Of a stretch of 64,000 nt of DNA, positions 1-22,600 are shown in pieces. The stretch comes from Saccoglossus kowalevskii. Lineage: Eukaryota > Hemichordata > Enteropneusta > Harrimaniidae. Positions within the stretch are counted from its first letter, which is position 1. Every line of letters starts with the position of its first letter. Where the stretch lies: positions 62,001-126,000 of the forward strand of contig NW_003151367.1 in NCBI RefSeq assembly GCF_000003605.2, given 5' to 3'. Both the position numbers and the translations under genes were made by a program. Below the pieces are notes generated by a model. The model worked only from the letters and a program-made list of their open reading frames with translations, made no database searches and was not told the origin of the DNA.

Positions 1-951
1 CACAGTGCGTTTTTAGCTGTTAACGTGGCGTGAAAAGTTGCGCAAAGTGAATTCAAAGTTGTGTAAAGTGATTGCAAGTTTGTAGATTTATTTGTATGTT
101 TGACCTAAGTTGTTTGCACATAAAAAACGGCAGTGTAAATCAAAAATGAATAAAAGCCAGATAAAAGCAGTCTATATTAGCAGAATATCACATGAGCTGA
201 CTGACTTTAAAATTGTTAGAAAACAGCGTGAAAAGTTGGTAAAAACGTTCGAAACGTTGGCGGAGTTGCTTCTATATTTAACATAAGTCATTGGAATGAC
301 AACCCCGCAGTTAAATTCAGAAAACATTGAGTAAATGTCTAGAAAATGCCCCATATATAAGCAGATTATCGCAACTGCGAGCCGAAAAATCGAAGGCAAA
401 CTGCTTACAAAGTTGTTAAAAGCGATTGCAAAGTTTGTAGATTCGTTTGGAAACGGTACACAGGATATTATATTGACGGGTCGCATAGTTAAAACTTCGA
501 AAACGTGAATAAATATTTCTTAAAATGCCGTTAAAGTAGCGTCGTGTTACTGGGAGCATGTACAGGTCATAGGTCAATTCAAGAAGTTACTTGTGCAAAC
601 GCTATCAATTTTAAAACACTTTCAAACATAAAATAGCCGCCAATTCTGGACAATTTCAAATTATTTAAGCAGTAGCGTGGGTAAGTAATCGAACAAAATC
701 TAAAGTTAAGCTCAATCGGGCGTGGTTAGTAGTTGCATGGGAGACTTCTTGAGTGACCTAGCTGGAGAAATTTTATTTGTTCATCACACACATGTCAAAG
801 ATATGAGGCAACGTTCTTGCATCTTTTTTTACTGTGATGTCATTTATTAATAGTAGAAAGACATGGAAATTTATTTATTTTTTCAAATTCATGAAAAGTT
901 TTTCCAATTTTCCTATTATTTTCAAAGAACAATTTGTTGATGCTGACGGCA
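1..951 (+). repeat. First monomer, starting exactly in phase at the window edge
   Basis: This copy has several single-base losses within its first 150 bases (GATTGCAAGTTTG, GGCAGTGTAAATC, CAAAAATG) compared with its neighbours. Its 3' part carries CTGGACAATTTC, GCAGTAGCG and the ATTTTATTTG form of the T-run, a haplotype shared with the monomer starting at 27286. Confidence 0.9.
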
Positions 952-3851
952 CACAGTGCGTTTTTAGCTGTTAACGTGGCGTGAAAAGTTGCGCAAAGTG
1001 AATTCAAAGTTGTGTAAAGTGATTGCAAAGTTTGTAGATTTATTTGTATGTTTGACCTAAGTTGTTTGCACATAAAAAACGGCAGTTGTAAAATCAAAAA
1101 ATGAATAAAAGCCAGATAAAAGCAGTCTATATTAGCAGAGTATCACATGAGCTGACTGACTTTAAAATTGTTAGAAAACAGCGTGAAAAGTTGGTAAAAA
1201 CGTTCGAAACGTTGGCGGAGTTGCTTCTATATTTAACCTAAGTCATTGGAATGACAACCCCGCAGTTAAATTCAGAAAACATTGAGTAAATGTCTAGAAA
1301 ATGCCCCACATATAAGCAGATTATGGCAACTGCGAGCCGAAAAATCGAAGACAAACTGCTTACAAAGTTGTTAAAAGCGATTGCAAAGTTTGTAGATTCG
1401 TTTGGAAACGGTACACAGGATATTATATTGACGGGTCGCATAGTTAAAACTTCGAAAACGTGAATAAATATTTCTTAAAATGCCGTTAAAGTAGCGTCGT
1501 GTTACTGGGAGCATGTACAGGTCATAGGTCAATTCAAGAAGTTACTTGTGCAAACGCTATCAATTGTAAAACACTTTCAAACATAAAATAGCCGCCAATT
1601 CAGGCCAATTTCAAATTACTTAAGCAGTAGTGTGGGTAAGTAATCGAACAAAATCTAAAGTTAAGCTCAATCGGGCGTGATAGTAGTTGCATGGAGACTT
1701 CTTGAGTGACCTAGCTGGAGAAATTGTTTTTGTTCATCACACACATGTCAAAGAATCTGAGGCAACGTTCTTGCATCTTTTTTTACTGTGATGTCATTTA
1801 TTAATAGTAGAAAGACATGGAAATTTATTTATTTTTCAAATTCATGAAAAGTTTTTTCAATTTCCTATTATTTTCAAAGAACAACTTGTTGATGCTGACG
1901 GCACACAGTGCGTTTTTAGCTGTTAACGTGGCGTGAAAAGTTGCGCAAAGTGAATTCAAAGTTGTGTAAAGTGATTGCAAAGTTTGTAGATTTATTTGTA
2001 TGTTTGACCTAAGTTGTTTGCACATAAAAAACGGCAGTTGTAAAATCAAAAAATGAATAAAAGCCAGATAAAAGCAGTCTATATTAGCAGAGTATCACAT
2101 GAGCTGACTGACTTTAAAATTGTTAGAAAACAGCGTGAAAAGTTGGTAAAAACGTTCGAAACGTTGGCGGAGTTGCTTCTATATTTAACCTAAGTCATTG
2201 GAATGACAACCCCGCAGTTAAATTCAGAAAACATTGAGTAAATGTCTAGAAAATGCCCCATATATAAGCAGATTATCGCAACTGCGAGCCGAAAAATCGA
2301 AGGCAAACTGCTTACAAAGTTGTTAAAAGCGATTGCAAAGTTTGTAGATTCGTTTGGAAATGGTACACAGGATATTATATTGACGGGTCGCATAGTTAAA
2401 ACTTCGAAAACGAGAATAAATATTTCTTAAAATGCCGTTAAAGTAGCGTCGTGTTACTGGGAGCATGTACAGGTCATAGGTCAATTCAAGAAGTTACTTG
2501 TGCAAACGCTATCAATTTTAAAACACTTTCAAACATAAAATAGCCGCCAATTCAGGACAATTTCAAATTACTTAAGCAGTAGTGTGGGTAAGTAATCGAA
2601 CAAAATCTAAAGTTAAGCTCAATCGGGCGTGGTTAGTAGTTGCATGGGAGACTTCTTGAGTGACCTAGCTGGAGAAATATTTTTTTGTTCATCACACACA
2701 TGTCAAAGATCTGAGGCAACGTTCTTGCATCTTTTTTATTACTGTGATGTCATTTATTAATAGTAGAAAGACATGGAAATTTATTTATTTTTTCAAATTC
2801 ATGAAAAGTTTTTTCAATTTTCCTATTATTTTCAAAGAACAACTTGTTGATGCTGACGGCACACAGTGCGTTTTTAGCTGTTAACGTGGCGTGAAAAGTT
2901 GCGCAAAGTGAATTCAAAGTTGTGTAAAGTGATTGCAAAGTTTGTAGATTTATTTGTATGTTTGACCTAAGTTGTTTGCACATAAAAAACGGCAGTTGTA
3001 AAATCAAAAAATGAATAAAAGCCAGATAAAAGCAGTCTATATTAGCAGAGTATCACATGAGCTGACTGACTTTAAAATTGTTAGAAAACAGCGTGAAAAG
3101 TTGGTAAAAACGTTCGAAACGTTGGCGGAGTTGCTTCTATATTTAACCTAAGTCATTGGAATGACAACCCCGCAGTTAAATTCAGAAAACATTGAGTAAA
3201 TGTCTAGAAAATGCCCCATATATAAGCAGATTATGGCAACTGCGAGCCGAAAAATCGAAGGCAAACTGCTTACAAAGTTGTTAAAAGCGATTGCAAAGTT
3301 TGTAGATTCGTTTGGAAACGGTACACAGGATATTATATTGACGGGTCGCATAGTTAAAACTTCGAAAACGTGAATAAATATTTCTTAAAATGCCGTTAAA
3401 GTAGCGTCGTGTTACTGGGAGCATGTACAGGTCATAGGTCAATTCAAGAAGTTACTTGTGCAAACGCTATCAATTTTAAAACACTTTCAAACATAAAATA
3501 GCCGCCAATTCAGGCCAGTTTCAAATTACTTAAGCAGTAGTGTGGGTAAGTAATCGAACAAAATCTAAAGTTAAGCTCAATCGGGCGTGTTAGTAGTTGC
3601 ATGGGAGACTTCTTGAGTGACCTAGCTGGAGAAAATATTTTTTTGTTCATCACACACATGTCAAAGATCTGAGGCAACGTTCTTGCATCTTTTTTTTACT
3701 GTGATGTCATTTATTAATAGTAGAAAGACATGGAAATTTATTTATTTTTTCAAATTCATGAAAAGTTTTTTCAATTTTCCTATTATTTTCAAAGAACAAC
3801 TTGTTGATGCTGACGGCACACAGTGCGTTTTTAGCTGTTAACGTGGCGTGA

Positions 3852-3893
3852 AAAGTTGCGCAAAGTGAATTCAAAGTTGTGTAAAGTGATTGC
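3852..3893 (+). repeat. Two adjacent 21-bp direct repeats at the head of the monomer
   Basis: Bases 3852-3872 and 3873-3893 match each other at 17 of 21 positions, both following the pattern AAAGTTGYGYAAAGTGA plus four bases. A weaker third copy starts at 3894 (AAAGTTTGTAGATT). The heads of R2 (from 4054) and R3 (from 4231) show the same ~20-21-bp beat of AAAGTTG-like or AAACGTTG-like starts. This suggests that the ~178-bp subrepeat itself grew from a ~21-bp unit. Confidence 0.75.
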
Positions 3894-4053
3894 AAAGTTT
3901 GTAGATTTATTTGTATGTTTGACCAAAGTTGTTTGCACATAAAAAACGGCAGTTGTAAAATCAAAAAATGAATAAAAGCCAGATAAAAGCAGTCTATATT
4001 AGCAGAGTATCACATGAGCTGACTGACTTTAAAATTGTTAGAAAACAGCGTGA
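3873..4053 (+). repeat. Internal subrepeat R1 (~181 bp)
   Basis: First of the diverged internal copies. Landmarks shared with R2 are the AAAGTTG head, a TNTATNTTNACC(T)AAGT block about 45 bases in, a GCAGTT(GT)AAA block, and TATATTAGCAGAGTATC at 3996-4012. The last is matched by TATATAAGCAGATTATG in R2 at an offset of about 180 bases. It holds the start of most open frames in this half of the monomer, none of which looks coding. Confidence 0.75.
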
Positions 4054-4230
4054 AAAGTTGGTAAAAACGTTCGAAACGTTGGCGGAGTTGCTTCTATATT
4101 TAACCTAAGTCATTGGAATGACAACCCCGCAGTTAAATTCAGAAAACATTGAGTAAATGTCTAGAAAATGCCCCATATATAAGCAGATTATGGCAACTGC
4201 GAGCCGAAAAATCGAAGGCAAACTGCTTAC
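4054..4230 (+). repeat. Internal subrepeat R2 (~177 bp)
   Basis: Second internal copy. It starts AAAGTTGGTAAAAACGTTCG and carries the ACCTAAGTCATTGG block, GCAGTTAAATTCAGAAAAC, AGTAAATGTCTAGAAAATGCC and TATATAAGCAGATTATG. Its second half also matches the second half of R3: GTTAAA, GAAAAC, TAAAT and AAAATGCC recur in the same order about 178 bases later. It is the segment most of which is lost in the net 80-bp deletion monomers at 12439 and 41613. Confidence 0.75.
4109..4122. repeat. Short inverted repeat GTCATTGGAATGAC
   Basis: Six-base arms GTCATT and AATGAC flank a central GG. It lies in R2 and is conserved in most monomers; in several variants one arm base changes (GTCGTT near 10819 and 11775, GCCATT near 19921 and 31390). 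It could be a dimeric protein site or chance. Confidence 0.35.
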
Positions 4231-4405
4231 AAAGTTGTTAAATGCGATTGCAAAGTTTGTAGATTCGTTTGGAAACGGTACACAGGATATTATATTGACG
4301 GGTCGCATAGTTAAAACTTCGAAAACGTGAATAAATATTTCTTAAAATGCCGTTAAAGTAGCGTCGTGTTACTGGGAGCATGTACAGGTCATAGGTCAAT
4401 TCAAG
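4231..4405 (+). repeat. Internal subrepeat R3 (~175 bp)
   Basis: Third internal copy, starting AAAGTTGTTAAATGCGATTG here (AAAAGCGATTG in most monomers). It shares the 20-base block GATTGCAAAGTTTGTAGATT with R1, 358 bases earlier. That shared block is where the 599-bp monomer at 19032 recombined. It also contains the GGGTCGCAT phase marker (4301-4308) and the CENP-B-box-like stretch. Confidence 0.75.
4263..4280 (+). other. CENP-B-box-like sequence (one base too long)
   Basis: ATTCGTTTGGAAACGGTA resembles the mammalian 17-bp CENP-B box (YTTCGTTGGAARCGGGA), but has one extra T in the spacer and GGTA where the box has GGGA. The version at 62076-62091 lacks the extra T and then differs at one of 16 positions, but it lies in a patch of doubtful sequence quality. 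A chance match is quite possible. Confidence 0.25.
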
Positions 4406-4475
4406 AAGTTACTTGTGCAAACGCTATCAATTTTAAAACACTTTCAAACATAAAATAGCCGCCAATTCAGGACAA
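4406..4475 (+). repeat. Partial, diverged fourth subrepeat R4
   Basis: AAGTTACTTGTGCAAACG at 4406 resembles the subrepeat head, and CATAAAATAGCCGC at 4449 resembles the CATAAAAAACGGC of R1, but 22 bases closer to the head, as if one 21-bp unit is missing. Similarity fades before the 5S-derived part, so the 5S segment seems to interrupt or replace the rest of this copy. The exact end is uncertain. Confidence 0.45.
4449..4458 (+). promoter_or_regulatory. TATA-like CATAAAATAG upstream of the inferred 5S-like start
   Basis: This AT-rich element lies about 18-27 bases before the position that would be +1 if the 5S-like part kept normal spacing. Some invertebrate and fungal 5S genes need a TATA-like element near -30. 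It is nearly invariant between monomers, but so is most of the monomer, so the functional reading is weak. Confidence 0.25.
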
Positions 4476-4523
4476 TTTCAAATTACTTAAGCAGTAGTGT
4501 GGGTAAGTAATCGAACAAAATCT

Positions 4524-4594
4524 AAAGTTAAGCTCAATCGGGCGTGGTTAGTAGTTGCATGGGAGACTTCTTGAGTGACCTAGCTGGAGAAATA
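4524..4594 (+). pseudogene. 5S rRNA-derived segment with type 1 Pol III internal promoter boxes
   Basis: AAGTTAAGC, ATCGGGCGTGGTTAGTA and ATGGGAGAC occur in the order and spacing of the 3' half of eukaryotic 5S rRNA. On 5S numbering, the A box (+50 to +64) maps to 4525-4539, the intermediate element to about 4542-4547, and the C box (+80 to +97) to 4555-4572, with 14 of 18 bases matching a vertebrate C box. The A-to-C spacing is unchanged. Against an arthropod-like 5S sequence recalled from memory, about 37 of 44 bases agree from AAGTTAAGC to GAC. The 5' half of 5S (+1 would fall near 4476) is not recognisable, so this cannot make a normal 5S rRNA. The segment recurs once per monomer, always on this strand; only a few copies (for example 18780-18845) are degraded. 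It could be a dead relic, or a retained TFIIIA/TFIIIC docking site. Known parallels are 5S-derived satellites of fish and frogs and 5S-headed SINE3 elements. Confidence 0.85.
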
Positions 4595-4601
4595 TTTTTT
4601 T
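4595..4601 (+). terminator. T-run at the expected 5S transcript end (Pol III-type terminator)
   Basis: Seven T residues start at the position equal to +120 of a 5S gene counted from the A box, just after GCTGGAGAAATA. Pol III terminates at four or more T. The exact sequence is the most variable site of the monomer (ATTTTATTTG, ATATTTTTTTG, ATTGTTTTTG, plain runs of 8 to 11 T). Yet nearly all copies I read keep at least four consecutive T; the clear exception is near 49962-49971, where the run is split by G. Confidence 0.55.
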
Positions 4602-4775
4602 GTTCATCACACACATGTCAAAGATCTGAGGCAACGTTTTTGCATCTTTTTTTTACTGTGATGTCATTTATTAATAGTAGAAAGACATGGAAATTTATTT
4701 ATTTTTTCAAATTCATGAAAAGTTTTTTCAATTTTCCTATTATTTTCAAAGAACAACTTGTTGATGCTGACGGCA
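4602..4775 (+). repeat. T-rich, AT-rich monomer tail without recognisable gene
   Basis: This stretch links the 5S-like part to the next monomer. It contains GTTCATCACACACATGTC, a TGATGTCATTTATTAATAG block, and a strongly T-rich run (TTTATTTATTTTTTC, then TTTTTTCAATTTTCC) around 4693-4740. Two linked haplotypes occur across the array: TTTTTTC with GAACAACTTG, as here, and TTTTTCC with GAACAATTTG. I cannot align it convincingly to the ~178-bp subrepeats or to a mobile element. Confidence 0.7.
4647..4654 (+). terminator. Second T-run, about 50 bp further on
   Basis: Eight T residues follow GCATC. The tract is 6 to 9 T in other monomers and could act as a back-up Pol III stop, or may simply be a homopolymer of the T-rich tail. 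Confidence 0.3.
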
Positions 4776-7638
4776 CACAGTGCGTTTTTAGCTGTTAACG
4801 TGGCGTGAAAAGTTGCGCAAAGTGAATTCAAAGTTGTGTAAAGTGATTGCAAAGTTTGTAGATTTATTTGTATGTTTGACCTAAGTTGTTTGCACATAAA
4901 AAACGGCAGTTGTAAAATCAAAAAATGAATAAAAGCCAGATAAAAGCAGTCTATATTAGCAGAGTATCACATGAGCTGACTGACTTTAAAATTGTTAGAA
5001 AACAGCGTGAAAAGTTGGTAAAAACGTTCGAAACGTTGGCGGAGTTGCTTCTATATTTAACCTATGTCATTGGAATGACAACCCCGCAGTTAAATTCAGA
5101 AAACATTGAGTAAATGTCTAGAAAATGCCCCATATATAAGCAGATTATCGCAACTGCGAGCCGAAAAATCGAAGGCAAACTACTTACAAAGTTGTTAAAA
5201 GCGATTGCAAAGTTTGTAGATTCGTTTGGAAATGGTACACAGGATATTATATTGACGGGTCGCATAGTTAAAACTTCGAAAACGAGAATAAATATTTCTT
5301 AAAATGCCGTTAAAGTAGCGTCGTGTTACTGGGAGCATGTACAGGTCATAGGTCAATTCAAGAAGTTACTTGTGCAAACGCTATCAATTTTAAAACACTT
5401 TCAAACATAAAATAGCCGCCAATTCAGGACAATTTCAAATTACTTAAGCAGTAGTGTGGGTAAGTAATCGAACAAAATCTAAAGTTAAGCTCAATCGGGC
5501 GTGGTTAGTAGTTGCATGGCAGACTTCTTGAGTGACCTAGCTGGAGAAATTTTTTTTGTTCATCACACACATGTCAAAGATATGAGGCAACGTTCTTGCA
5601 TCTTTTTTTACTGTGATGTCATTTATTAATAGTAGAAAGACATGGAAATTTATTTATTTTTTCAAATTCATGAAAAGTTTTTCCAATTTTCCTATTATTT
5701 TCAAAGAACAATTTGTTGATGCTGACGGCACACAGTGCGTTTTTAGCTGTTAACGTGGCGTGAAAAGTTGCGCAAAGTGAATTCAAAGTTGTGTAAAGTG
5801 ATTGCAAAGTTTGTAGATTTATTTGTATGTTTGACCTAAGTTGTTTGCACATAAAAAACGGCAGTTGTAAAATCAAAAAATGAATAAAAGCCAGATAAAA
5901 GCAGTCTATATTAGCAGAGTATCACATGAGCTGACTGACTTTAAAATTGTTAGAAAACAGCGTGAAAAGTTGGTAAAAACGTTCGAAACGTTGGCGGAGT
6001 TGCTTCTATATTTAACCTAAGTCATTGGAATGACAACCCCGCAGTTAAATTCAGAAAACATTGAGTAAATGTCTAGAAAATGCCCCATATATAAGCAGAT
6101 TATCGCAACTGCGAGCCGAAAAATCGAAGGCAAACTGCTTACAAAGTTGTTAAAAGCGATTGCAAAGTTTGTAGATTCATTTGGAAACGGTACACAGGAT
6201 ATTATATTGACGGGTCGCATAGTTAAAACTTCGAAAACGTGAATAAATATTTCTTAAAATGCCGTTAAAGTAGCGTCGTGTTACTGGGAGCATGTACAGG
6301 TCATAGGTCAATTCAAGAAGTTACTTGTGCAAACGCTATCAATTTTAAAACACTTTCAAACATAAAATAGCCGCCAATTCTGGACAATTTCAAATTATTT
6401 AAGCAGTAGCGTGGGTAAGTAATCGAACAAAATCTAAAGTTAAGCTCAATCGGGCGTGGTTAGTAGTTGCATGGGAGACTCTGAGTGACCTTAGCTGGAG
6501 AAATGTTTTGTTCATCACACACATGTCAAAGATCTGAGGCAACGTTCTTGCATCTTTTTTTACTGTGATGTCATTTATTAATAGTAGAAAGACATGGAAA
6601 TTTATTTATTTGTTCAAGTTCATGAAAAGTTTTTCAATTTTCCTATTATTTTCAAAGAACAACTTGTTGATGCTGACGGCACACAGTGCGTTTTTAGCTG
6701 TTAACGTGGCGTGAAAAGTTGCGCAAAGTGAATTTCAAAGTTGTGTAAAGTGATTGCAAAGTTTGTAGATTTATTTGTATGTTTGACCTAAGTTGTTTGC
6801 ACATAAAAAACGGCAGTTGTAAAATCAAAAAATGAATAAAAGCCAGATAAAAGCAGTCTATATTAGCAGAGTATCACATGAGCTGACTGACTTTAAAATT
6901 GTTAGAAAACAGCGTGAAAAGTTGGTAAAAACGTTCGAAACGTTGGCGGAGTTGCTTCTATATTTAACCCAAGTCATTGGAATGACAACCCCGCAGTTAA
7001 ATTCAGAAAACATTGAGTAAATGTCTAGAAAATGCCCCATATATAAGCAGATTATCGCAACTGCGAGCCGAAAAATCGAAGGCAAACTGCTTACAAAGTT
7101 GTTAAAAGCGATTGCAAAGTTTGTAGATTCGTTTGGAAATGGTACACAGGATATTATATTGACGGGTCGCATAGTTTAAACTTCGAAAACGAGAATAAAT
7201 ATTTCTTAAAATGCCGTTAAAGTAGCGTCGTGTTACTGGGAGCATGTACAGGTCATAGGTCAATTCAAGAAGTTACTTGTGCAAACGCTATCAATTTTAA
7301 AACACTTTCAAACATAAAATAGCCGCCAATTCAGGACAATTTCAAATTACTTAAGCAGTAGTGTGGGTAAGTAATCGAACAAAATCTAAAGTTAATCCCA
7401 ATCGGGCGTGGTTAGTAGTTGCATGGGAGACTTCTTGAGCGACCTAGCTGGAGAAATTTTTTTTTGTTCATCACACACATGTCAAAGATATGAGGCAACG
7501 TTCTTGCATCTTTTTTTACTGTGATGTCATTTATTAATAGTAGAAAGACATGGAAATTTATTTATTTTTTCAAATTCATGAAAAGTTTTTTCAATTTTCC
7601 TATTATTTTCAAAGAACAACTTGTTGATGCTGACGGCA

Positions 7639-8599
7639 CACAGTGCGTTTTTAGCTGTTAACGTGGCGTGAAAAGTTGCGCAAAGTGAATTCAAAGTTGT
7701 GTAAAGTGATTGCAAAGTTTGTAGATTTATTTGTATGTTTGACCTAAGTTGTTTGCACATAAAAAACGGCAGTTGTAAAATCAAAAAATGAATAAAAGCC
7801 AGATAAAAGCAGTCTATATTAGCAGAGTATCACATGAGCTGACTGACTTTAAAATTGATAGAAAACAGCGTGAAAAGTTGGTAAAAAACGTTCTAAACGT
7901 TGGCAGAGTTGCTTCTATATTTAACCTAAGTCATTGGAATGACAACCCCGCAGTTAAATTCAGAAAACATTGAGTAAATGTCTAGAAAATGCCCCATATA
8001 TAAGCAGATTATCGCAACTGCGAGCCGACAAATCGAAGGCAAACTGCTTACAAAGTTGTTAAAAGCGATTGCAAAGTTTGTAGATTCGTTTGGAAACGGT
8101 ACACAGGATATTATATTGACGGGTCGCATAGTTAAAACTTCGAAAACGTGAATAACTATTTCTTAAAATGAACGTTAAAGTAGCGTCGTGTTACTGGGAG
8201 CATGTACAGGTCATAGGTCAATTCAAGAAGTTACTTGTGCAAACGCTATCAATTTTAAAACACTTTCAAACATAAAATAGCCGCCAATTCAGGTCAATTT
8301 CAAATTACTTAAGCAGTAGTGTGGGTAAAGTAACCGAACAAAATCTAAAGTTAAAGCTCAATCGGGCGTGGTTAGTAGTTGCATGGGAGACTTCTTGAGT
8401 GACCTAGCTGGAGAAATTTTTTTTTTGTTCATCACACACATGTCAAAGATATGAGGCAACGTTCTTGCATCTTTTTTTACTGTGATGTCATTTATTAATA
8501 GTAGAAAGACATGGAAATTTATTTATTTTTTCAAATTCATGAAAAGTTTTTTCAATTTTCCTATTATATTAAAAGAACAACTTGTTGATGCTGACGACA
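7639..8599 (+). repeat. Monomer with linked AATAAC / TGAACG variants
   Basis: This 961-bp copy reads AATAACTATTTC and AAAATGAACGTTAAAG where most copies read AATAAATATTTC and AAAATGCCGTTAAAG. The same pair is found in the monomers starting at 19032, 53012 and 59707. It also has ATTGATAG in place of ATTGTTAG, and GTAACCGAAC before the 5S-like part. Confidence 0.85.
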
Positions 8600-11483
8600 C
8601 ATAGTGCGTGCGTTTTTAGCTGTTAACGTAGCGTGAAACGTTGCGCAAAGTGAATTCAAAGTTGTGTAAAGTGATTGCAAAGTTTGTAGATTTATTTGTA
8701 TGTTTGACCTAAGTTGTTTGCACATAAAAAACGGCAGTTGTAAAATAAAAAAAAATGAATAAAAGCCTGATAAAAGCAGTCTATATTAGCAGAGTATCAC
8801 ATGAGCTGACTGACTTTAAAATTGATAGAAAACAGCGTGAAAAGTTGGTAAAAACGTTCGAAACGTTGGCGGAGTTGCTTCTATATTTAACCTAAGTCAT
8901 TGGAATGACAACCCCGCAGTTAAATTCAGAAAACATTGAGTAAATGTCTAGAAAATGCCACATATATAAGCAGATTATCGCAACTGCGAGCCGAAAAATC
9001 GAAGGCAAACTGCTTACAAAGTTGTTAAAAGCGATTGCAAAGTTTGTAGATTCGTTTGGAAACGGTACACAGGATATTATATTGACGTGTCGCATAGTTA
9101 AAACTTCGAAAACGTGAATAAATATTTCTTAAAATGCCGTTAAAGTAGCGTCGTGTTACTGGGAGCATGTACAGGTCATAGGTCAATTCAAGAAGTTACT
9201 TGTGCAAACGCTATCAATTTTAAAACACTTTCAAACATAAAATAGATGCCAATTCAGGTCAATTTCAAATTACTTAAGCAGTAGTGTGGGTAAGTAATCG
9301 AACAAAATCTAAAGTTAAGATCAATCGGGCGTGGTTAGTAGTTGCATGGGAGACTTCTTGAGTGACCTAGCTGGAGAATTTTTGTTTTGTTCATCACACA
9401 CATGTCAAAGATATGAGGCAACGTTCTTGCATCTTTTTTTTACTGTGATGTCATTTATTAATAGTAGAAAGACATGGAAATTTATTTATTTTTTCAAATT
9501 CATGAAAAGTTTTTTTCAATTTTCCTATTATTTTCAAAGAACAACTTGTTGATGCTGACGGCACATAGTGCGTGCGTTTTTAGCTGTTAACGTGGCGTGA
9601 AAAGTTGCCCAAAGTGAATTCAAAGTTGTGTAAAGTGATTGCAAAGTTTGTAGATTTATTTGTATGTTTGACCTAAGTTGTTTGCACATAAAAAACGGCA
9701 GTTGTAAAATCAAAAAATGAATAAAAGCCAGATAAAAGCAGTCTATATTAGCAGAGTATCACATGAGCTGACTGACTTCAAAATTGATAGAAAACAGCGT
9801 GAAAAGTTGGTAAAAAACGTTCGAAACGTTGGCGGAGTTGCTTCTATATTTAACCTAAGTCACTGGAATGACAACCCCGCAGTTAAATTCAGAAAACATT
9901 GAGTAAATGTCTAGAAAATGCCCCATATATAAGCAGATTATCGCAACTGCGAGCCGGAAAATCGAAGGCAAACTGCTTACAAAGTTGTTAAAAGCGATTG
10001 CAAAGGTTGTAGATTCGTTTGGAAACGGTACACAGGATATTATATTGACGGGTCGCATAGTTAAAACTTCGCAAACGTGAATAAATATTTCTTAAAATGC
10101 CGTTAAAGTAGCGTCGTGTTACTGGGAGCATGTACAGGTCATAGGTCAATTCAAGAAGTTACTTGTGCAAACGCTATCAATTTTAAAACATTTTCAAACA
10201 TAAAATAGCCGCCAATTCAGGTCAATTTCAAATTACTTAAGTAGTAGTGTGGGTAAGTAATCGAACAAAATCTAAAGTTAAGCTCAATCGGGCGTGGTGA
10301 GTAGTTGCATGGCAGACTTCTTGAGTTACCTAGCTGGAGAATTTTTTTTTTGTTCATCACACACATGTCAAAGATATGAGGCAACGTTCGTGCATCTTTT
10401 TTACTGTGATGTCATTTATTAATAGTAGAAAGACATGGAAATTTATTTATTTTTTCAAATTCATGAAAAGTTTTTTCAATTTTCCTATTATTTTCAAAGA
10501 ACAACTTGTTGATGCTGACGGCACATAGTGCGTGCGTTGTTAGCTGTTAACGTGGCGTGACAAGTTGCGCAAAGTGAATTCAAAGTTGTGTAAAGTGATT
10601 GCAAAGTTTGTAGATTTATTTGTATGTTTGACCTAAGTTGTTTGCACATAAAAAACGGCAGTTGTAAAATCAAAAAATGAATAAAAGCCAGATAAAAGCA
10701 GTCTATATTAGCAGAGTATCACATGAGCTGACTGACTTTAAAATTGATAGAAAACAGCGAGAAAAGTTGGTAAAAACGTTCGAAACGTTGGCGGAGTTGC
10801 TTCTATATTTAACCTAAGTCGTTGGAATGACAACCCCGCAGTTAAATTCAGAAAACATTGAGTAAATGTCTAGAAAATGCCCCATATATAAGCAGATTAT
10901 CGCAACTGCGAGCCGAAAAATCGAAGGCAAACTGCTTACAAAGTTGTTAAAAGCGATTGCAAAGTTTGTAGATTCGTTTGGAAACGGTACACAGGATATT
11001 ATATTGACGGGTCGCATAGTTAAAACTTCGAAAACGTGAATAAATATTTCTTAAAATGCCGTTAAAGTAGCGTCGTGTTACTGGGAGCATGTACAGGTCA
11101 TAGGTCAATTCAAGAAGTTACTTGTGCAAACGCTATCAATTTTAAAACACTTTCAAACATAAAATAGCCGCCAATTCAGGCCAATTTCAAATTACTTAAG
11201 CAGTAGTGTGGGTAAGTAATCGAACAAAATCTAAAGTTAAGCTCAATCGGGCGTGGTTAGTAGTTGCATGGGAGACTTCTTGAGTGACCTAGCTGGAGAA
11301 ATTTTTTTTTGTTCATCACACACATGTCAAAGATATGAGGCAACGTTCTTGCATCTTTTTTTACTGTGATGTCATTTATTAATAGTAGAAAGACATGGAA
11401 ATTTATTTATTTTTTCAAATTCATGAAAAGTTTTTTCAATTTTCCTATTATTTTCAAAGAACAACTTGTTGATGCTGACGGCA
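8600..11483 (+). repeat. Block of three monomers with CATAGTGCGTGCG start
   Basis: Three consecutive copies (starts 8600, 9564, 10524; 964, 960 and 960 bp) have CATAGTGCGTGCGTT at the phase point instead of CACAGTGCGTTT, a 4-base TGCG duplication. The only other example is at 23454. All three also carry ATTGATAG, pointing to local spread of one variant. Confidence 0.85.
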
Positions 11484-12438
11484 CACAGTGCGTTTTTAGC
11501 TGTTAACGTGGCGTGAAAAGTTGCGCAAAGTGAATTCAAAGTTGTGTAAAGTGATTGCAAAGTTTGTAGATTTATTTGTATGTTTGACCTAAGTTGTTTG
11601 CACATAAAAAACGGCAGTTGTAAAATCAAAAAATGAATAAAAGCCAGATAAAAGCAGTCTATATTAGCAGAGTATCACATGAGCTGACTGACTTTAAAAT
11701 TGTTAGAAAACAGCGTGAAAAGTTGGTAAAAACGTTCGAAACGTTGGCGGAGTTGCTTCTATATTTAACCTAAGTCGTTGGAATGACAATCCCGCAGTTA
11801 AATTCAGAAAACATTGAGTAAATGTCTAGAAAATGCCCCATATATAAGCAGATTATCGCAACTGCGAGCCGAAAAATCGAAGGCAAACTGCTTACAAAGT
11901 TTTTAAAAGCGATTGCAAAGTTTGTAGATTCGTTTGGAAACGGTACACAGGATATTATATTGACGGGTCGCATAGTTAAATCTTCGAAAACGTGAATAAA
12001 TATTTCTTAAAATGCCGTTAAAGTAGCGTCGTGTTACTGGGAGCATGTACAGGTCATAGGTCAATTCAAGAAGTTACTTGTGCAAACGCTATCAATTTTA
12101 AAACACTTTCAAACATAAAATAGCCGCCAATTCAGGACAATTTCAAATTACTTAAGCAGTAGTGTGGGTAAGTAATCGAACAAAATCTAAAGTTAAGCTC
12201 AATCGGGCGTGGTTAGTAGTTGCATGGGAGACTTCTTGAGTGACCTAGCTGGAGAAATTTTATTTGTTCATCACACACATGTCAAAGATATGAGGCAACG
12301 TTCTTGCATCTTTTTTTACTGTGATGTCATTTATTAATAGTAGAAAGACATGGAAATTTATTTATTTTTTCAAATTCATGAAAAGTTTTTCCAATTTTCC
12401 TATTATTTTCAAAGAACAATTTGTTGATGCTGACGGCA

Positions 12439-13313
12439 CACAGTGCGTTTTTAGCTGTTAACGTGGCGTGAAAAGTTGCGCAAAGTGAATTCAAAGTTGT
12501 GTAAAGTGATTGCAAAGTTTGTAGATTTATTTGTATGTTTGACCTAAGTTGTTTGCACATAAAAAACGGCAGTTGTAAAATCAAAAAATGAATAAAAGCC
12601 AGATAAAAGCAGTCTATATTAGCAGAGTATCACATGAGCTGACTGACTGACATTGGAATGACAACCCCGCAGTTAAATTCAGAAAACATTGAGTAAATGT
12701 CTAGAAAATGCCCCATATATAAGCAGATTATCGCAACTGCGAGCCGAAAAATCGAAGGCAAACTGCTTACAAAGTTGTTAAAAGCGATTGCAAAGTTTGT
12801 AGATTCGTTTGGAAACGGTACACAGGATATTATATTGACGGGTCGCATAGTTAAAACTTCGAAAACGTGAATAAATATTTCTTAAAATGCCGTTAAAGTA
12901 GCGTCGTGTTACTGGGAGCATGTACAGGTCATAGGTCAATTCAAGAAGTTACTTGTGCAAACGCTATCAATTTTAAAACACTTTCAAACATAAAATAGCC
13001 GCCAATTCAGGCCAATTTCAAATTACTTAAGCAGTAGTGTGGGTAAGTAATCGAACAAAATCTAAAGTTAAGCTCAATCGGGCGTGGTTAGTAGTTGCAT
13101 GGGAGACTTCTTGAGTGACCTAGCTGGAGAAATTTTTTTTGTTCATCACACACATGTCAAAGATATGAGGCAACGTTCTTGCATCTTTTTTTACTGTGAT
13201 GTCATTTATTAATAGTAGAAAGACATGGAAATTTATTTATTTTTTCAAATTCATGAAAAGTTTTTCCAATTTTCCTATTATTTTCAAAGAACAATTTGTT
13301 GATGCTGACGGCA
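12439..13313 (+). repeat. Short monomer (875 bp), net 80-bp deletion in R2
   Basis: The junction GAGCTGACTGACTGACATTGG near 12636-12656 joins the end of R1 directly to CATTGGAATGAC, removing the ATTGTTAG-to-CCTAAGT stretch and adding an extra TGAC. The same junction occurs in the monomer starting at 41613. The 5S-like part, its T-run and R3 are intact. Confidence 0.9.
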
Positions 13314-16300
13314 CACAGTGCGTTTTTAGCTGTTAACGTGGCGTGAAAAGTTGCGCAAAGTGAATTCAAAGTTGTGTAAAGTGATTGCAAAGTTTGTAGA
13401 TTTATTTGTATGTTTGACCTAAGTTGTTTGCACATAAAAAACGGCAGTTGTAAAATCAAAAAATGAATAAAAGCCAGATAAAAGCAGTCTATATTAGCAG
13501 AGTATCACATGAGCTGACTGACTTTAAAATTGTTAGAAAACAGCGTGAAAAGTTGGTAAAAACGTTCGAAACGTTGGCGGAGTTGCTTCTATATTTAACC
13601 TAAGTCATTGGAATGACAACCCCGCAGTTAAATTCAGAAAACATTGAGTAAATGTCTAGAAAATGCCCCATATATAAGCAGATTATCGCAACTGCGAGCC
13701 GAAAAATCGAAGGCAAACTGCTTACAAAGTTGTTAAAAGCGATTGCAAAGTTTGTAGATTCGTTTGGAAACGGTACACAGGATATTATATTGACGGGTCG
13801 CATAGTTAAAACTTCGAAAACGTGAATAAATATTTCTTAAAATGCCGTTAAAGTAGCGTCGTGTTACTGGGAGCATGTACAGGTCATAGGTCAATTCAAG
13901 AAGTTACTTGTGCAAACGCTATCAATTTTAAAACACTTTCAAACATAAAATAGCCGCCAATTCATTTCAATTTCAAATTACTTAAGCAGTAGTGTGGGTA
14001 AGTAATCGAACAAAATCTAAAGTTAAGCTCAATCGGGCGTGGTTAGTAGTTGCATGGGAGACTTCTTGAGTGACCTAGCTGGAGAAATATTTTTTTGTTC
14101 ATCACACACATGTCAAAGATCTGAGGCAACGTTCTTGCATCTTTTTTTTTACTGTGATGTCATTTATTAATAGTAGAAAGACATGGAAATTTATTTATTT
14201 TTTCAAATTCATGAAAAGTTTTTTCAATTTTCCTATTATTTTCAAAGAACAATTTGTTGATGCTGACGGCACACAGTGCGTTTTTAGCTGTTAACGTGGC
14301 GTGAAAAGTTGCGCAAAGTGAATTCAAAGTTGTGTAAAGTGATTGCAAAGTTTGTAGATTTATTTGTATGTTTGACCTAAGTTGTTTGCACATAAAAAAC
14401 GGCAGTTGTAAAATCAAAAAATGAATAAAAGCCAGATAAAAGCAGTCTATATTAGCAGAGTATCACATGAGCTGACTGACTTTAAAATTGTTAGAAAACA
14501 GCGTGAAAAGTTGGTAAAAACGTTCGAAACGTTGGCGGAGTTGCTTCTATATTTAACCTAAGTCATTGGAATGACAACCCCGCAGTTAAATTCAGAAAAC
14601 ATTGAGTAAATGTCTAGAAAATGCCCCATATATAAGCAGATTATGGCAACTGCGAGCCGAAAAATCGAAGGCAAACTGCTTACAAAGTTGTTAAAAGCGA
14701 TTGCAAAGTTTGTAGATTCGTTTGGAAACGGTACACAGGATATTATATTGACGGGTCGCATAGTTAAAACTTCGAAAACGTGAATAAATATTTCTTAAAA
14801 TGCCGTTAAAGTAGCGTCGTGTTACTGGGAGCATGTACAGGTCATAGGTCAATTCAAGAAGTTACTTGTGCAAACGGTATCAATTTTAAAACACTTTCAA
14901 ACATAAAATAGCCGCCAATTCAGGACAATTTCAAATTACTTAAGCAGTAGTGTGGGTAAGTAATCGAACAAAATCTAAAGTTAAGCTTAATCGGGCCGTG
15001 GTTAGTAGTTGCATGGGAGACTTCTTGAGTGACCTAGCTGGAGAAATATTTTTTTGTTCATCACACACATGTCAAAGATCTGAGGCAACGTTCTTGCATC
15101 TTTTTTATTACTGTGATGTAATTTATTAATAGTAGAAAGACATGGAAATTTATTTATTTTTTCAAATTCATGAAAAGTTTTTTCAATTTTCCTATTATTT
15201 TCAAAGAACAACTTGTTGATGCTGACGGCACACAGTGCGTTTTTAGCTGTTAACGTGGCGTGAAAAGTTGCGCAAAGTGAATTCAAAGTTGTGTAAAGTG
15301 ATTGCAAAGTTTGTAGATTTATTTGTATGTTTGACCTAAGTTGTTTGCACATAAAAAACGGCAGTTGTAAAATCAAAAAATGAATAAAAGCCAGATAAAA
15401 GCAGTCTATATTAGCAGAGTATCACATGAGCTGACTGACTTTAAAATTGTTAGAAAACAGCGTGAAAAGTTGGTAAAAACGTTCGAAACGTTGGCGGAGT
15501 TGCTTCTATATTTAACCTAAGTCATTGGAATGACAACCCCGCAGTTAAATTCAGAAAACATTGAGTAAATGTCTAGAAAATGCCCCATATATAAGCAGAT
15601 TATGGCAACTGCGAGCCGAAAAATCGAAGGCAAACTGCTTACAAAGTTGTTAAAAGCGATTGCAAAGTTTGTAGATTCGTTTGGAAACGGTACACAGGAT
15701 ATTATATTGACGGGTCGCATAGTTAAAACTTCGAAAACGTGAATAAATATTTCTTAAAATGCCGTTAAAGTAGCGTCGTGTTACTGGGAGCATGTACAGG
15801 TCATAGGTCAGTTCAAGAAGTTACTTGTGCAAACGCTATCAATTTTAAAACACTTTCAAACATAAAATAGCCGCCAATTCAGGACAATTTCAAATTACTT
15901 AAGCAGTAGTGTGGGTAAGTAATCGTACAAAATCTAAAGTTAAGCTCAATCGGGCGTGGTTAGTAGTTGCATGGGAGACTTCTTGAGTGACCTAGCTGGA
16001 GAAATATTTTTTTGTTCATCACACACATGTCAAAGATCTGAGGCAACGTTCTTGCATCTTTTTTTTACTGTGATGTCATTTATTAATAGTAGAAAGACAT
16101 GGAAATTTATTTATTTTTTCAAATTCATGAAAAGTTTTTTCAATTTTCCTATTATTTTCAAAGAACAACTTGTTGATGCTGACGGCACACAGTGCGTTTT
16201 TAGCTGTTAACGTGGCGTGAAAAGTTGCGCAAAGTGAATTCAAAGTTGTGTAAAGTGATTGCAAAGTTTGTAGATTTATTTGTATGTTTGACCTAAGTTG

Positions 16301-17143
16301 TTTGCACATAAAAAACGGCAGTTGTAAAATCAAAAAATGAATAAAAGCCAGATAAAAGCAGTCTATATTAGCAGAGTATCACATGAGCTGACTGACTTTA
16401 AAATTGTTAGAAAACAGCGTGAAAAGTTGGTAAAAACGTTCGAAACGTTGGCGGAGTTGCTTCTATATTTAACCTAAGTCATTGGAATGACAACCCCGCA
16501 GTTAAATTCAGAAAACATTGAGTAAATGTCTAGAAAATGCCCCATATATAAGCAGATTATCGCAACTGCGAGCCGAAAAATCGAAGGCAAACTGCTTACA
16601 AAGTTGTTAAAAGCGATTGCAAAGTTTGTAGATTCGTTTGGAAACGGTACACAGGATATTATATTGACGGGTCGCATAGTTAAAACTTCGAAAACGTGAA
16701 TAAATATTTCTTAAAATGCCGTTAAAGTAGCATCGTGTTACTGGGAGCATGTACAGATCATAGGTCAATTCAAGAAGTTACTTGTGCAAACGCTATCAAT
16801 TTTAAAACACTTTCAAACATAAAATAGCCGCCAATTCAGGACAATTTCAAATTACTTAAGCAGTAGTGTGGGTAAGTAATCGAACAAAATCTAAAGTTAA
16901 GCTCAATCGGGCGTGGTTAGTAGTTGCATGGGAGACTTCTTGAGTGACCTAGCTGGAGAAATTGTTTTTGTTCATCACACACATGTCAAAGATATGAGGC
17001 AACGTTCTTGCATCTTTTTTTTACTGTGATGTCATTTATTAATAGTAGAAAGACATGGAAATTTATTTATTTTTTCAAATTCATGAAAAGTTTTTTCAAT
17101 TTTCCTATTATTTTCAAAGAACAACTTGTTGATGCTGACGGCA

Positions 17144-18080
17144 CACAGTGCGTTTTTAGCTGTTAACGTGGCGTGAAAAGTTGCGCAAAGTGAATTCAAA
17201 GTTGTGTAAAGTGATTGCAAAGTTTGTAGATTTATTTGTATGTTTGACCTAAGTTGTTTGCACATAAAAAACGGCAGTTGTAAAATCAAAAAATGAATAA
17301 AAGCCAGATAAAAGCAGTCTATATTAGCAGAGTATCACATGAGCTGACTGACTTTAAAATTGTTAGAAAACAGCGTGAAAAGTTGGTAAAAACGTTCGAA
17401 ACGTTGGCGGAGTTGCTTCTATATTTAACCTAAGTCATTGGAATGACAACCCCGCAGTTAAATTCAGAAAACATTGAGTAAATGTCTAGAAAATGCCCCA
17501 TATATAAGCAGATTATCGCAACTGCGAGCCGAAAAATCGAAGGCAAACTGCTTACAAAGTTGTTAAAAGCGATTGCAAAGTTTGTAGATTCGTTTGGAAA
17601 CGGTACACAGGATATTATATTGACGGGTCGCATAGTTAAAACTTCGAAAACGTGAATAAATATTTCTTAAAATGCCGTTAAAGTAGCGTCGTGTTACTGG
17701 AAGCATGTACAGGTCATAGGTCAATTCAAGAAGTTACTTGTGCAAACGCTATCAATTTTAAAACACTTTCAAACATAAAATAGCCGCCAATTCATTACAA
17801 TTTCAAATTACTTAAGCAGTAGTATGGGTAAGTAATCGAACAAAATCTAAAGTAAGCTCAATCGGGCGTGGTTAGTAGTTGCATGGGAGACTTCTTGAGT
17901 GACCTAGCTGGAGAAGTTTTTTTTGTTCATCACACACATGTCAAAGATATGAGCACGTTCTTGCATCTTTTTTTACTGTGATGTCATTATAATAGTAGAA
18001 AGACATGGAAATTATTATTTTTCAAATCATGAAAGTTTTTCAATTTCTATATTTCAAGACAACTGTTGATGCTGACGGCA
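17144..18080 (+). repeat. Monomer with a degraded 3' end (937 bp)
   Basis: From about 17850 onward the copy loses single bases repeatedly, mostly from short homopolymers (GAGCACG for GAGGCAACG, GTCATTATAATAG, GGAAATTATTATTTTTC, CAATTTCTATATTTC), about 20 bases in all. The first 700 bases are normal. Clustered homopolymer losses look like consensus error as much as true decay. Confidence 0.8.
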
Positions 18081-19031
18081 CACAGTGCGTTTTTAGCTGT
18101 TAACGTGGCGTGAAAAGTTGCGCAAAGTGAATTCAAAGTTGTGTAAAGTGATTGCAAAGTTTGTAGATTTATTTGTATGTTTGACCTAAGTTGTTTGCAC
18201 ATAAAAAACGGCAGTTGTAAAATCAAAAAAAGAATAAAAGCCAGATAAAAGCAGTCTATATTAGCAGAGTATCACATGAGCTGACTGACTTTAAAATTGT
18301 TAGAAAACAGCGTGAAAAGTTGGTAAAAACGTTCGAAACGTTGGCGGAGTTGCTTCTATATTTAACCTAAGTCATTGGAATGACAACCCCGCAGTTAAAT
18401 TCAGAAAACATTGAGTAAATGTCTAGAAAATGCCCCATATATAAGCAGATTATCGCAACTGCGAGCCGAAAAATCGAAGGCAAACTGCTTACAAAGTTGT
18501 TAAAAGCGATTGCAAAGTTTGTAGATTCGTTTGGAAACGGTACACAGGATATTATATTGACGGGTCGCATAGTTAAAACTTCGAAAACGTGAATAACTAT
18601 TTCTTAAAATGCCGTTAAAGTAGCGTCGTGTTACTGGGAGCATGTACAGGTCATAGGTCAATTCAAGAAGTTACTTGTGCAAACGCTATCAATTTTAAAA
18701 CACTTTCAAACATAAAATAGCCGCCAATTCTGGACAATTTCAAATTATTAAGCAGTAGCGTGTGTAAGTAATCTAACAAATCTAAGGTTAGCTCAATCGG
18801 GCGTGCTTAGTAGTGCATGGGAGACTTCTTGATGACCTACTGGAGAAAGTTTTTTTGTTCATCACACGCATGTCAAAGATATGAGGCAACGTTCTTGCAT
18901 CCTTTTTTACTGTGATGTCATTTATTAATATTAGAAAGACATGGAAATTTATTTATTTTTTCAAATTCATGAAAAGTTTTTTTTCAATTTTCCTATTATT
19001 TTCAAAGAACAACTTGTTGATGCTGACGGCA
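18081..19031 (+). repeat. Monomer with a degraded 5S-like segment (951 bp)
   Basis: The 5S-like part has base losses and changes (AAGGTTAGCTCAATC, TTAGTAGTGCATGGG, TTGATGACCTACTGG) at about 18785-18845. Both boxes are damaged here, unlike in nearly all other copies. The translation start region reads AAAAAAAGAATAAAAG instead of AAAAAATGAATAAAAG near 18230, showing that the frames around it are not protected. Confidence 0.8.
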
Positions 19032-19630
19032 CACAGTGCGTTTTTAGCTGTTAACGTGGCGTGAAAAGTTGCGCAAAGTGAATTCAAAGTTGTGTAAAGT
19101 GATTGCAAAGTTTATAGATTCGTTTGGAAACGGTACACAGGATATTATATTGACGGGTCGCATAGTTAAAACTTCGAAAACGTGAATAACTATTTCTTAA
19201 AATGAACGTTAAAGTAGCGTCGTGTTACTGGGAGCATGTACAGGTCATAGGTCAATTCAAGAAGTTACTTGTGCAAACGCTATCAATTTTAAAACACTTT
19301 CAAACATAAAATAGCCGCCAATTCAGGTCAATTTCAAATTACTTAAGCAGTAGTGTGGGTAAGTAACCGAACAAAATCTAAAGTTAAGCTCAATCGGGCG
19401 TGGTTAGTAGTTGCATGGGAGACTTCTTGAGTGTCCTAGCTGGAGAATTTTTTTTTGTTCATCACACACATGTCAAAGATATGAGGCAACGTTCTTGCAT
19501 CTTTTTTTACTGTGATGTCATTTATTAGTATTAGAAAGACATGGAAATTTATTTATTTTTTCAAATTCATGAAAAGTTTTTTTCAATTTTCCTATTATTT
19601 TCAAAGAACAACTTGTTGATGCTGACGGCA
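19032..19630 (+). repeat. Truncated monomer (599 bp) with an exact 358-bp loss
   Basis: GTGATTGCAAAGTTTATAGATTCG at about 19101 joins the R1 head directly to R3. The start-to-marker distance is 131 instead of 489 bases, a loss of exactly 358, which is the R1-to-R3 offset in a normal monomer. This fits unequal exchange at the shared GATTGCAAAGTTTGTAGATT block. R1 remainder and R2 are gone; the 5S-like part and tail remain. Confidence 0.92.
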
Positions 19631-22600
19631 CACAGTGCGTTTTTAGCTGTTAACGTGGCGTGACAAGTTGCGCAAAGTGAATTCAAAGTTGTGTAAAGTG
19701 ATTGCAAAGTTTGTAGATTTATTTGTATGTTTGACCTAAGTTGTTTGCACATAAAAAACGGCAGTTGTAAAATCAAAAAATGAATAAAAGCCAGATAAAA
19801 GCACTCTATATTAGCAGAGTATCACATGAGCTGACTGACTTTAAAATTGATAGAAAACAGCGTGAAAAGTTGGTAAAAAACGTTCGAAACGTTGGCGGAG
19901 TTGCTTCTATATTTAACCTAAGCCATTGGAATGACAACCCCGCAGTTAAATTCAGAAAACATTGAGTAAATGTCTAGAAAATGCCCCATATATAAGCAGA
20001 TTATCGCAACTGCGAGCCGAAAAATCGAAGGCAAACTGCTTACAAAGTTGTTAAAAGCGATTGCAAAGTTTGTAGATTCGTTTGGAAACGGTACACAGGA
20101 TATTATATTGACGGGTCGCATAGTTAAAACTTCGAAAACGTGAATAACTATTTCTTAAAATGCCGTTAAATTAGCGTCGTGTTACTGGGGGCATGTACAG
20201 GTCATAGGTCAATTCAAGAAGTTACTTGTGCAAACGCTATCAATTTTAAAACACTTTCAAACATAAAATAGCCGCCAATTCAGGTCAATTTCAAATTATT
20301 TAAGCAGTAGTATGGGTAAGTAATCGAACAAAATCTAAAGTTAAGCTCAATCGGGCGTGGTTAATAGTTGCATGGGAGACTTCTTGAGTGACCTAGCTGG
20401 AGAATTTTTTTTTTCATCACACACATGTCAAAGATATGAGGCAACGTTCTTGCATCTTTTTTTACTGTGATGTCATTTATTAATAGTAGAAAGACATGGA
20501 AATTTATTTATTTTTTCAAATTCATGAAAAGATTTTTCAATTTTCCTATTATTTTCAAAGAACAACTTGTTGATGCTGACGGCACACAGTGCGTTTTTAG
20601 CTGTTAACGTGGCATGAAAAGTTGCGCAAAGTGAATTCAAAGTTGTGTAAAGTGATTGCAAAGTTTGTAGATTTATTTGTATGTTTGACCTAAGTTGTTT
20701 GCACATAAAAAACGGCAGTTGTAAAATCAAAAAATGAATAAAAGCCAGATAAAAGCAGTCTATATTAGCAGAGTATCACATGAGCTGACTGACTTTAAAA
20801 TTGTTAGAAAACAGCGTGAAAAGTTGGTAAAAACGTTCGAAACGTTGGCGGAGTTGCTTCTATATTTAACCTAAGTCATTGGAATGACAACCCCGCAGTT
20901 AAATTCAGAAAACATTGAGTAAATGTCTAGAAAATGCCCCATATATAAGCAGATTATCGCAACTGCGAGCCGAAAAATCGAAGGCAAACTGCTTACAAAG
21001 TTGTTAAAAGCGATTGCAAAGTTTGTAGATTCGTTTGGAAACGGTACACAGGATATTATATTGACGGGTCGCATAGTTAAAACTTCGAAAACGTGAATAA
21101 ATATTTCTTAAAATGCCATTAAAGTAGCGTCGTGTTACTGGGAGCATGTACAGGTCATAGGTCAATTCAAGAAGTTACTTGTGCAAACGCTATCAATTTT
21201 AAAACACTTTCAAACATAAAATAGCCGCCAATTCAGGTCAATTTCTAATTACTTAAGCAGTAGTGTGGGTAAGTAATCGAACAAAATCTAAAGTTAAGCT
21301 CAATCGGGCGTGGTTAGTAGTTGCATGGGAGACTTCTTGAGTGACCTAGCTGGAGAAATTTGTTTTTGTTCATCACACACATGTCAAAGATAAGAGGCAA
21401 CGTTCTTGCATCTTTTTTTACTGTGATGTCATTTATTAATAGTAGAAAGACATGGAAATTTATTTATTTTTTTCAAATTCATGAAAAGTTTTTCCAATTT
21501 TCCTATTATTTTCAAAGAACAATTTGTTGATGCTGACGGCACACAGTGCGTTTTTAGCTGTTAACGTGGCGTGAAAAGTTGCGCAAAGTGAATTCAAAGT
21601 TGTGTAAAGTGATTGCAAAGTTTGTAGATTTATTTGTATGTTTGACCTAAGTTGTTTGCACATAAAAAACGGCAGTTGTAAAATCAAAAAATGAATAAAA
21701 GCCAGATAAAAGCAGTCTATATTAGCAGAATATCACATGAGCGGACTGACTTTAAAATTGTTAGAAAACAGCGTGAAAAGTTGGTAAAAACGTTCGAAAC
21801 GTTGGCGGAGTTGCTTCTATATTTAACCTAAGTCATTGGAATGACAACCCCGCAGTTAAATTCAGAAAACATTGAGTAAATGTCTAGAAAATGCCCCATA
21901 TATAAGCAGATTATCGCAACTGCGAGCCGAAAAATCGAAGGCAAACTGCTTACAAAGTTGTTAAAAGCGATTGCAAAGTTTGTAGATTCGTTTGGAAACG
22001 GTACACAGGATATTATATTGACGGGTCGCATAGTTAAAACTTCGAAAACGTGAATAAATATTTCTTAAAATGCCGTTAAAGTAGCGTCGTGTTACTGGGA
22101 GCATGTACAGGTCATAGGTCAATTCAAGAAGTTACTTGTGCAAACGCTATCAATTTTAAAACACTTTCAAACATAAAATAGCCACCAATTCAGGCCAGTT
22201 TCAAATTATTTAAGCAGTAGTGTGGGTAAGTAATCGAACAAAATCTAAAGTTAAGCTCAATCGGGCGTGGTTAGTAGTTGCATGGGAGACTTCTTGAGTG
22301 ACCTAGCTGGAGAAATTGTTTTTGTTCATCACACACATGTCAAAGATATGAGGCAACGTTCTTGCATCTTTTTTTACTGTGATGTCATTTATTAATAGTA
22401 GAAAGACATGGAAATTTATTTATTTTTTCAAATTCATGAAAAGTTTTTTCAATTTTCCTATTATTTTCAAAGAACAACTTGTTGATGCTGACGGCACACA
22501 GTGCGTTTTTAGCTGTTAACGTGGCGTGAAAAGTTGCGCAAAGTGAATTCAAAGTTGTGTAAAGTGATTGCAAAGTTTGTAGATTTATTTGTATGTTTGA

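Follow-up and report, generated by a model that had tools for sequence, protein, structure and literature searches.

A satellite superfamily of Saccoglossus kowalevskii that retains the internal control region of the 5S rRNA gene

The satellite array

The window, i.e., the whole 64,000-nucleotide stretch of DNA that was analysed (G000:C4155:62001-126000), belongs to a 572-Mb assembly which also contains the true 5S genes of the host. It is filled by a satellite whose features are listed in Table 1. BLAST with a 955-base unit (4700-5654) tiles the whole window with pieces that are 95–100% identical and lie in a single orientation. The consensus monomer (n = 63 full copies) has 956 bases, and the mean divergence is 1.1% per site. 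The contig outside the window consists of the same monomer: 9,987–10,000 bases are covered per 10,000, and the final stretch is covered over its full 615 bases (this check took in all parts of the contig outside the window except 60001-62000).

Table 1. Features of the window. Those of the monomer are given for one example copy; 5S numbering starts at +1.
Feature	Positions	Strand	Remarks
Satellite array	1..64000	+	monomers of ~955-956 bp, 67 5S-derived cores, uniform orientation
Two adjoining non-5S blocks	4073..4160	+	conservation among four families equal to or higher than that of the 5S core
Upstream element ATAAAATAGCCGCCAATT	4450..4467	+	-27 to -10; candidate TATA-like/upstream promoter part
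5S-derived cassette, example copy	4477..4595	+	5S +1 to +119; in-register flanks 28/75
Conserved core	4525..4567	+	5S nt 49-91; identity with host 5S 39/43
A box	4526..4540	+	5S 50-64; identity 12/15 with host 5S and 10/15 with human 5S
Intermediate element	4543..4548	+	5S 67-72; 6/6 identical to host 5S
C box	4556..4573	+	5S 80-97; 14/18 identical to host 5S, four changes at 92-95
T-run, possible Pol III terminator	4595..4601	+	T4+ in 66/67 copies

The original prediction was that every monomer carries a cassette derived from 5S rRNA, which amounts to about 67 potential TFIIIA sites in 64 kb. A 43-nt core (AAGTTAAGC...GGGAGAC) is indeed found in 67 copies on the plus strand and in none on the minus strand (within 7 edits); 51 of these copies are exact, and the full 48-nt consensus is intact in 50 of the 67. 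The predicted number of potential sites is thus confirmed and, judging from its boxes, the cassette may bind TFIIIA and Pol III.

The example unit (4700-5654) contains three related stretches of about 120–145 bp, with a spacing of about 180 bp and identities of 63–66%, which make up about half of the monomer. The monomers at 12648 and 41822, which are far apart, both lack the same ~79 bp, and this is a sign of unequal exchange or of segment copying within the array. The CpG observed/expected ratio in the window is 1.1. Positions 4263-4278 (ATTCGTTTGGAAACGG) resemble a CENP-B box with one extra base; this sequence is not retained in the sister families that were aligned. The monomer has no match in plasmids, and the exact box C gives 0 matches in viral and prokaryote collections.

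Identity of the core

The limits of the A box, the intermediate element and the C box, and the human, Drosophila and C. elegans 5S sequences used for comparison, are those which we take to be standard. When nt 49 is placed at 4525, +1 falls at 4477, and the A box and the C box start at 4526 and 4556, i.e., 30 bases apart. The example copy thus has the A box, the intermediate element and the C box of a type 1 (5S) Pol III promoter at the spacing of 5S, as had been predicted. The mismatches between the core and nt 49–91 of the host 5S are located at 59–61 and 78, and the identity (39/43) is higher than with human 5S (35/43); the proposed 5S origin therefore survives the comparison with the host's own genes.

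Local alignment of the monomer gives a score of 54 against human 5S (28 for the best of 500 dinucleotide shuffles) and of 50 against Drosophila 5S (34 for the best of 500), while the score against C. elegans 5S, 36, is equalled by the best of 500 shuffles. The 5S model RF00001, which had been suggested as a check, gave a divided answer. On the isolated stretch, it recognizes a local match at 4524-4596 with 23.6 bits (E = 0.0022), as expected, but this is below the gathering score of 38, and the 47 host 5S genes that were scored reach 105–113 bits. The value for nt 49–97 alone is 18.1 bits (E = 0.04). RF00001 is absent from the gathering scan of the whole window, and from a 2.5-kb scan up to E = 5. 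The repeat is organized in tandem and its sequence derives from the host 5S gene, as in the 5S-derived satellites.

A T-run had been predicted near +120. In agreement with this prediction, 66 of the 67 copies have a run of four or more T that begins at +116 to +121 (at +119 in the example copy), and the T-run of the host 5S gene itself begins at +119. By chance, a T4+ run would begin at most 2 nt from a set place in about 4% of cases. The idea that the terminator-like run is specially retained within the array was rejected, as it is kept in 62/63 copies and the other T-runs of the monomer in 58–63/63. Within the monomer, variability is highest in the 24-base stretch which holds the terminator-like run.

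The upstream element ATAAAATAGCCGCCAATT may be a TATA-like sequence or another upstream part of the promoter. The motif GCCGCCAAT is exact in the families or clusters C124, C203 and C115 and in one C6 copy, and it recurs with one or two changes in C324, C389, C74 and C482 (these sister families are described below).

Remains of a complete gene

The original prediction considered the first ~50 nt of 5S to be unrecognizable in the monomer. This is true by eye, since the visible match ends at nt 49 and nt 91, and it is not true statistically, since the first 48 nt are recognizable in register. The flanks (nt 1–48 and 92–118), compared ungapped and in register with the host 5S, are identical at 28/75 positions (a count which varies by one between comparisons, as do the host 5S variants by one base), and the mean over registers on both strands is 17.3. 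In the window, only 7 of 1912 registers, the true one among them, do as well as 28/75. The 1–48 part is matched as well by 0.6% of the registers and the 92–118 part by 12%; with gaps allowed, neither flank is significant (9% for 1–48, 31% for 92–118). Among the sister families, the one with a 728-base unit has 33/75 identities in the flanks, a value reached by 1/1456 registers, which is the true one. The corresponding figures are 28 for C389 (5/1882 registers), 25 for C324 (44/1888) and 24 for C124 (77/1890).

The in-register identity of the flanks and the position of the T-run indicate that the ancestor was a complete 5S gene, including its terminator. At the level of sequence comparison, what is left of a complete 5S rRNA gene from the host lineage is thus shown to lie, still in register, in each monomer.

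This gene has decayed unequally: the identity to the host 5S is 91% in nt 49–91 and 37% in the flanks (39/43 versus 28/75, Fisher p = 7e-9). The flanks of the host 5S and of human 5S are still alike at 60/75 positions, which indicates that the decay of the flanks took place in the satellite. Judging from these alignments, nearly all of the ancestral 5S gene has decayed, except the internal control region. The spacers of the host 5S genes have no similarity to the satellite outside the core, in the stretches that were compared.

Sister families in the genome

The promoter-only cassette is not unique to the array of the window: several such families are present in the genome. A box-C pattern with one free base gives 2,282 + 1,565 matches genome-wide, and a 30-base core with at most 3 mismatches gives 5,172 + 3,347 = 8,519; the reversed controls give 0 + 0 in both cases. 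The copy number of 5S-derived cores is therefore high, although both counts include the true 5S genes and the 8,519 matches also include a 216-bp satellite. A block of the monomer that is unrelated to 5S is found 3,166 + 1,654 times with at most 2 mismatches (4 + 2 for the control).

Among the matches listed, the tandem families are C4155 (956 bases, the family of the window), C324 (944), C389 (941), C124 (945) and C115 (728). The units of C74 and C482 are about 937–944 bases long, based on the spacings of the matches listed, and C6 and C203, two contigs of 531 kb, carry short degenerate clusters. Since only the first ~100 matches per search were listed, other families may exist. The four families of ~945 bases are 77–86% identical over the monomer, and C115 is 60–61% identical to them. 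The 100 box-C matches listed (of 2,282 + 1,565) fall in 8 contigs, including C6, C203 and C115, and in the examined parts of these contigs they form arrays or short clusters, with not a single isolated copy.

The satellite with a 216-base unit (contigs C111 and C242, loci L024 and L025) is of another kind, as its unit includes an almost complete copy of 5S. It had been considered as support for promoter-only decay, and it was discarded when the gapped alignment revealed the nearly intact 5S copy.

Conservation of the core and of the flanks

The inequality between core and flanks is seen in each of 11 cassettes from 9 contigs, which were representatives picked by the analyst: compared with the host 5S, 34–39 of the 43 positions are identical in the core and 25–35 of 75 in the flanks (Fisher p ≤ 3e-5 each). 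The conservation of nt 70–91 in C115, C6 and C203 is biased, because these families were found by means of the exact box C. When places were picked with the block that is independent of 5S, a cassette was found in 16 of the 18 evaluable ones (L033 and L043, which have no cassette, were scored as misses; of the 20 stretches sampled, one lay beyond its contig and L049 was dropped). In 15 of these 16, a T4+ run begins at +116 to +123. Nucleotides 64–91 of these 16 cassettes differ from the host 5S by 0–4 edits. Pairwise identity averages 0.89 for the core and 1.0 for the intermediate element in seven cassettes from 6 contigs, none of them picked by box C, versus 0.75 for nt 1–48 and 0.78 for nt 92–116. 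The values are 0.90, 0.76 and 0.77 for the core, nt 1–48 and nt 92–116, respectively, in a set whose C324 and C389 copies come from stretches that had been selected by box C.

Selection was also looked for inside the array and is not visible there, as the core ranks only at the 44th percentile among the 43-bp windows of the monomer. Between four families, the core is in the top 3.4% of the windows, and two other blocks are better conserved. Between these four families, conservation in the monomer is highest at 4109-4122, which lies in the non-5S blocks of Table 1 and is not derived from 5S. This part has a palindrome, GTCATTGGAATGAC, which reads GTCATTATCATGAC in C324 and C389, and is possibly another protein-binding site.

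The cassettes are not all intact. Box C is altered in C74 (four copies, 2–4 edits in nt 64–91) and in C124 (four copies, 1–3 edits). Internal T4+ runs, at which transcription could terminate prematurely, are present in C324 (at +45), in C482a (at +7) and in single copies of C6 and C74.

RNA fold

The predicted fold of the cassette of the window is no more stable than those of shuffled sequences (z = +0.72), and RNAalifold on 14 cassettes predicts 19 pairs, of which 0/19 have a change on both sides. The helices of 5S are lost: 11 cassettes keep 12–16 of the 34 pairs, against 12.2–15.8 for slid partners, and the cassette of the window keeps 15/34 (12.2 for the slid control). In contrast, two of the 216-base units keep 27 and 28 of the 34 pairs. 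The loss of the fold and the absence of covarying pairs imply that the force which preserved the core acted on the DNA, as expected for an internal promoter.

An RNA product with a conserved fold is thus disfavoured, and it is highly improbable that the cassette is a structured non-coding RNA gene, be it a 5S variant or a spliced-leader RNA. The latter was considered on account of GGTAAGTAA, which lies in a hairpin in the window, and of an Sm-like T-run with a G after it; the 8-bp hairpin which holds GTAAGT is the only perfect one of at least 8 bp (loop of 3–25 nt) in the consensus. The donor-like site is missing from 13 sister cassettes, so that the spliced-leader gene was rejected. Together with the fold statistics and the loss of the 5S helices, this means that the structured-RNA reading is already largely refuted.

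Comparison with other 5S-derived repeats

5S-derived satellites are known, and the promoter-only superfamily is a new variant among them. At the level of titles and abstracts, no satellite that keeps only the 5S control region was found described in the literature, which is no proof of absence. The centromeric satellite of Hoplias malabaricus and PLsatB of Plantago lagopus are also 5S-derived and tandem, in other hosts, to judge from their descriptions; the former is presumably the one called 5SHindIII-DNA. SINE3 elements have a 5S-related head and hence a 5S-type internal promoter, a feature that they share with the cassette. They are dispersed retroposons, whereas the cassettes of the window form tandem arrays.

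PcP190, in hyloid frogs, is described as a tandem satellite derived from 5S rDNA (PMC11675491, PMC4201667, PMC4877019). Selection on its conserved 5S-like part is offered as one hypothesis (PMC4201667), and its transcription is reported from RNA-seq (PMC11675491). Like the satellite of the window, PcP190 pairs a conserved 5S-like part with variable DNA (PMC4201667). The reported unit is of ~190 bp with a 120-bp region similar to transcribed 5S, while the units found here are of ~941–956 or 728 bp and only nt 49–91 are clearly similar. By this description, the 216-bp satellite of the host (C111, C242) is a closer match to PcP190 than the satellite of the window.

The Cassandra elements are reported to have 5S promoter boxes at a fixed spacing in a variable neighbourhood (PMC10853983), and to carry Pol III promoters and terminators and form tandem arrays (PMC7215508). 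They are LTR retroelements of plants, and neither an LTR nor a conserved primer-binding site was seen here in a limited look. In Tribolium freemani, where 5S rDNA has satellite-like spacers, 5S and satellite DNA are reported to be intertwined in arrays, as here, and some 5S copies to have a 30-bp deletion at their start. These arrays are said to hold full-length 5S genes, which the window does not.

Possible reasons for the retention of the promoter

The fact that only the internal switch of a 5S gene is kept in thousands of copies suggests that this switch mattered for a long time. The most likely reading, although in our opinion at no better than even odds, is that a TFIIIA-type Pol III promoter persists in the repeat because its binding or transcription helps the array to exist or to spread, whatever RNA is made. 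The internal promoter (the TFIIIA site) and its distance to the terminator would be preserved by selection, acting either on the host or on the repeat's own propagation, and the transcribed sequence would be free to change. Each monomer would be a TFIIIA-binding site from which Pol III could initiate near +1 (4477) and then terminate in the T-run, so that short RNAs without structure would be made. The effect would come from the binding or from transcription itself, by way of the chromatin state, of clustering with 5S loci, or of recombination that spreads the array; the structure of the RNA would play no part. The extension of this reading to the whole superfamily is tentative: selection, or the spread of the repeats themselves, would maintain thousands of TFIIIA/Pol III promoters irrespective of the RNA, and the binding or passage of the factors would help arrays to form, cluster and expand.

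The interpretation that came with the original prediction is partly supported: the analysis bears out the 5S derivation, the boxes with their spacing, and the terminator-like T-run. It also proposed that the array may produce a ~120-nt RNA, may titrate TFIIIA, or may be a relic. That the array is a neutral relic, a 5S gene caught in a satellite and homogenised with it, the core being kept by chance or by past constraint only, is an unlikely but serious alternative. It would account for a core that, inside the array, is no better conserved than the rest of the monomer, for other blocks that are equally or better conserved between families, for the lost 5S fold and for the altered box C of some families, and the core may have been constrained only at an earlier stage. 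A relic alone is not easily reconciled with a core at 91% beside flanks that are still in register at 37%, which even decay would not give, and this asymmetry is present in 11/11 of the cassettes tested.

It is quite improbable, in our view, that the cassette is the former head of a 5S-derived SINE (SINE3-like) or a part of a Cassandra-like TRIM, whose promoter was kept as long as it was mobile, the satellite being a tandemised descendant. The conserved boxes with their spacing, the variable neighbourhood and the tandem arrays described for Cassandra (PMC10853983, PMC7215508) are what such a past would predict, and the short degenerate clusters in the two 531-kb contigs also fit. Neither a conserved primer-binding site nor a clean element end was found in a limited look; outside the core there is one conserved TGG block, and this block is changed in C115. 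The lack of solitary copies in the examined parts of the 8 contigs (100 matches listed) also argues against mobility.

Whatever the reason for its retention, the control region belongs to a graded series within one genome, from true 5S genes to the 216-bp satellite with its near-complete 5S and to the satellites of 728 to 956 bp that keep the control region only. To our knowledge, satellites are usually thought to have no conserved function, and their transcription by Pol III is little documented. The graded series makes it possible to ask whether Pol III factors shape satellite arrays and whether the extra sites, thousands in number, compete with the 5S genes for TFIIIA.

Other observations

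The 5S genes of the host are mostly spaced by about 1139 and 1579 bases. They occur in at least two types of arrays (units of ~1139 and 1579 bp; loci L001 and L010; contigs C3485, C2212 and C3801), whose spacers are unrelated by eye. Another contig, C4830 (L052), has a COX1 match with seven in-frame TGA codons and is therefore probably mitochondrial; a frame near COX1, which we take to be ND1, hints at an invertebrate, as it has AAA at a presumably conserved Lys and AGA at a presumed Ser position.
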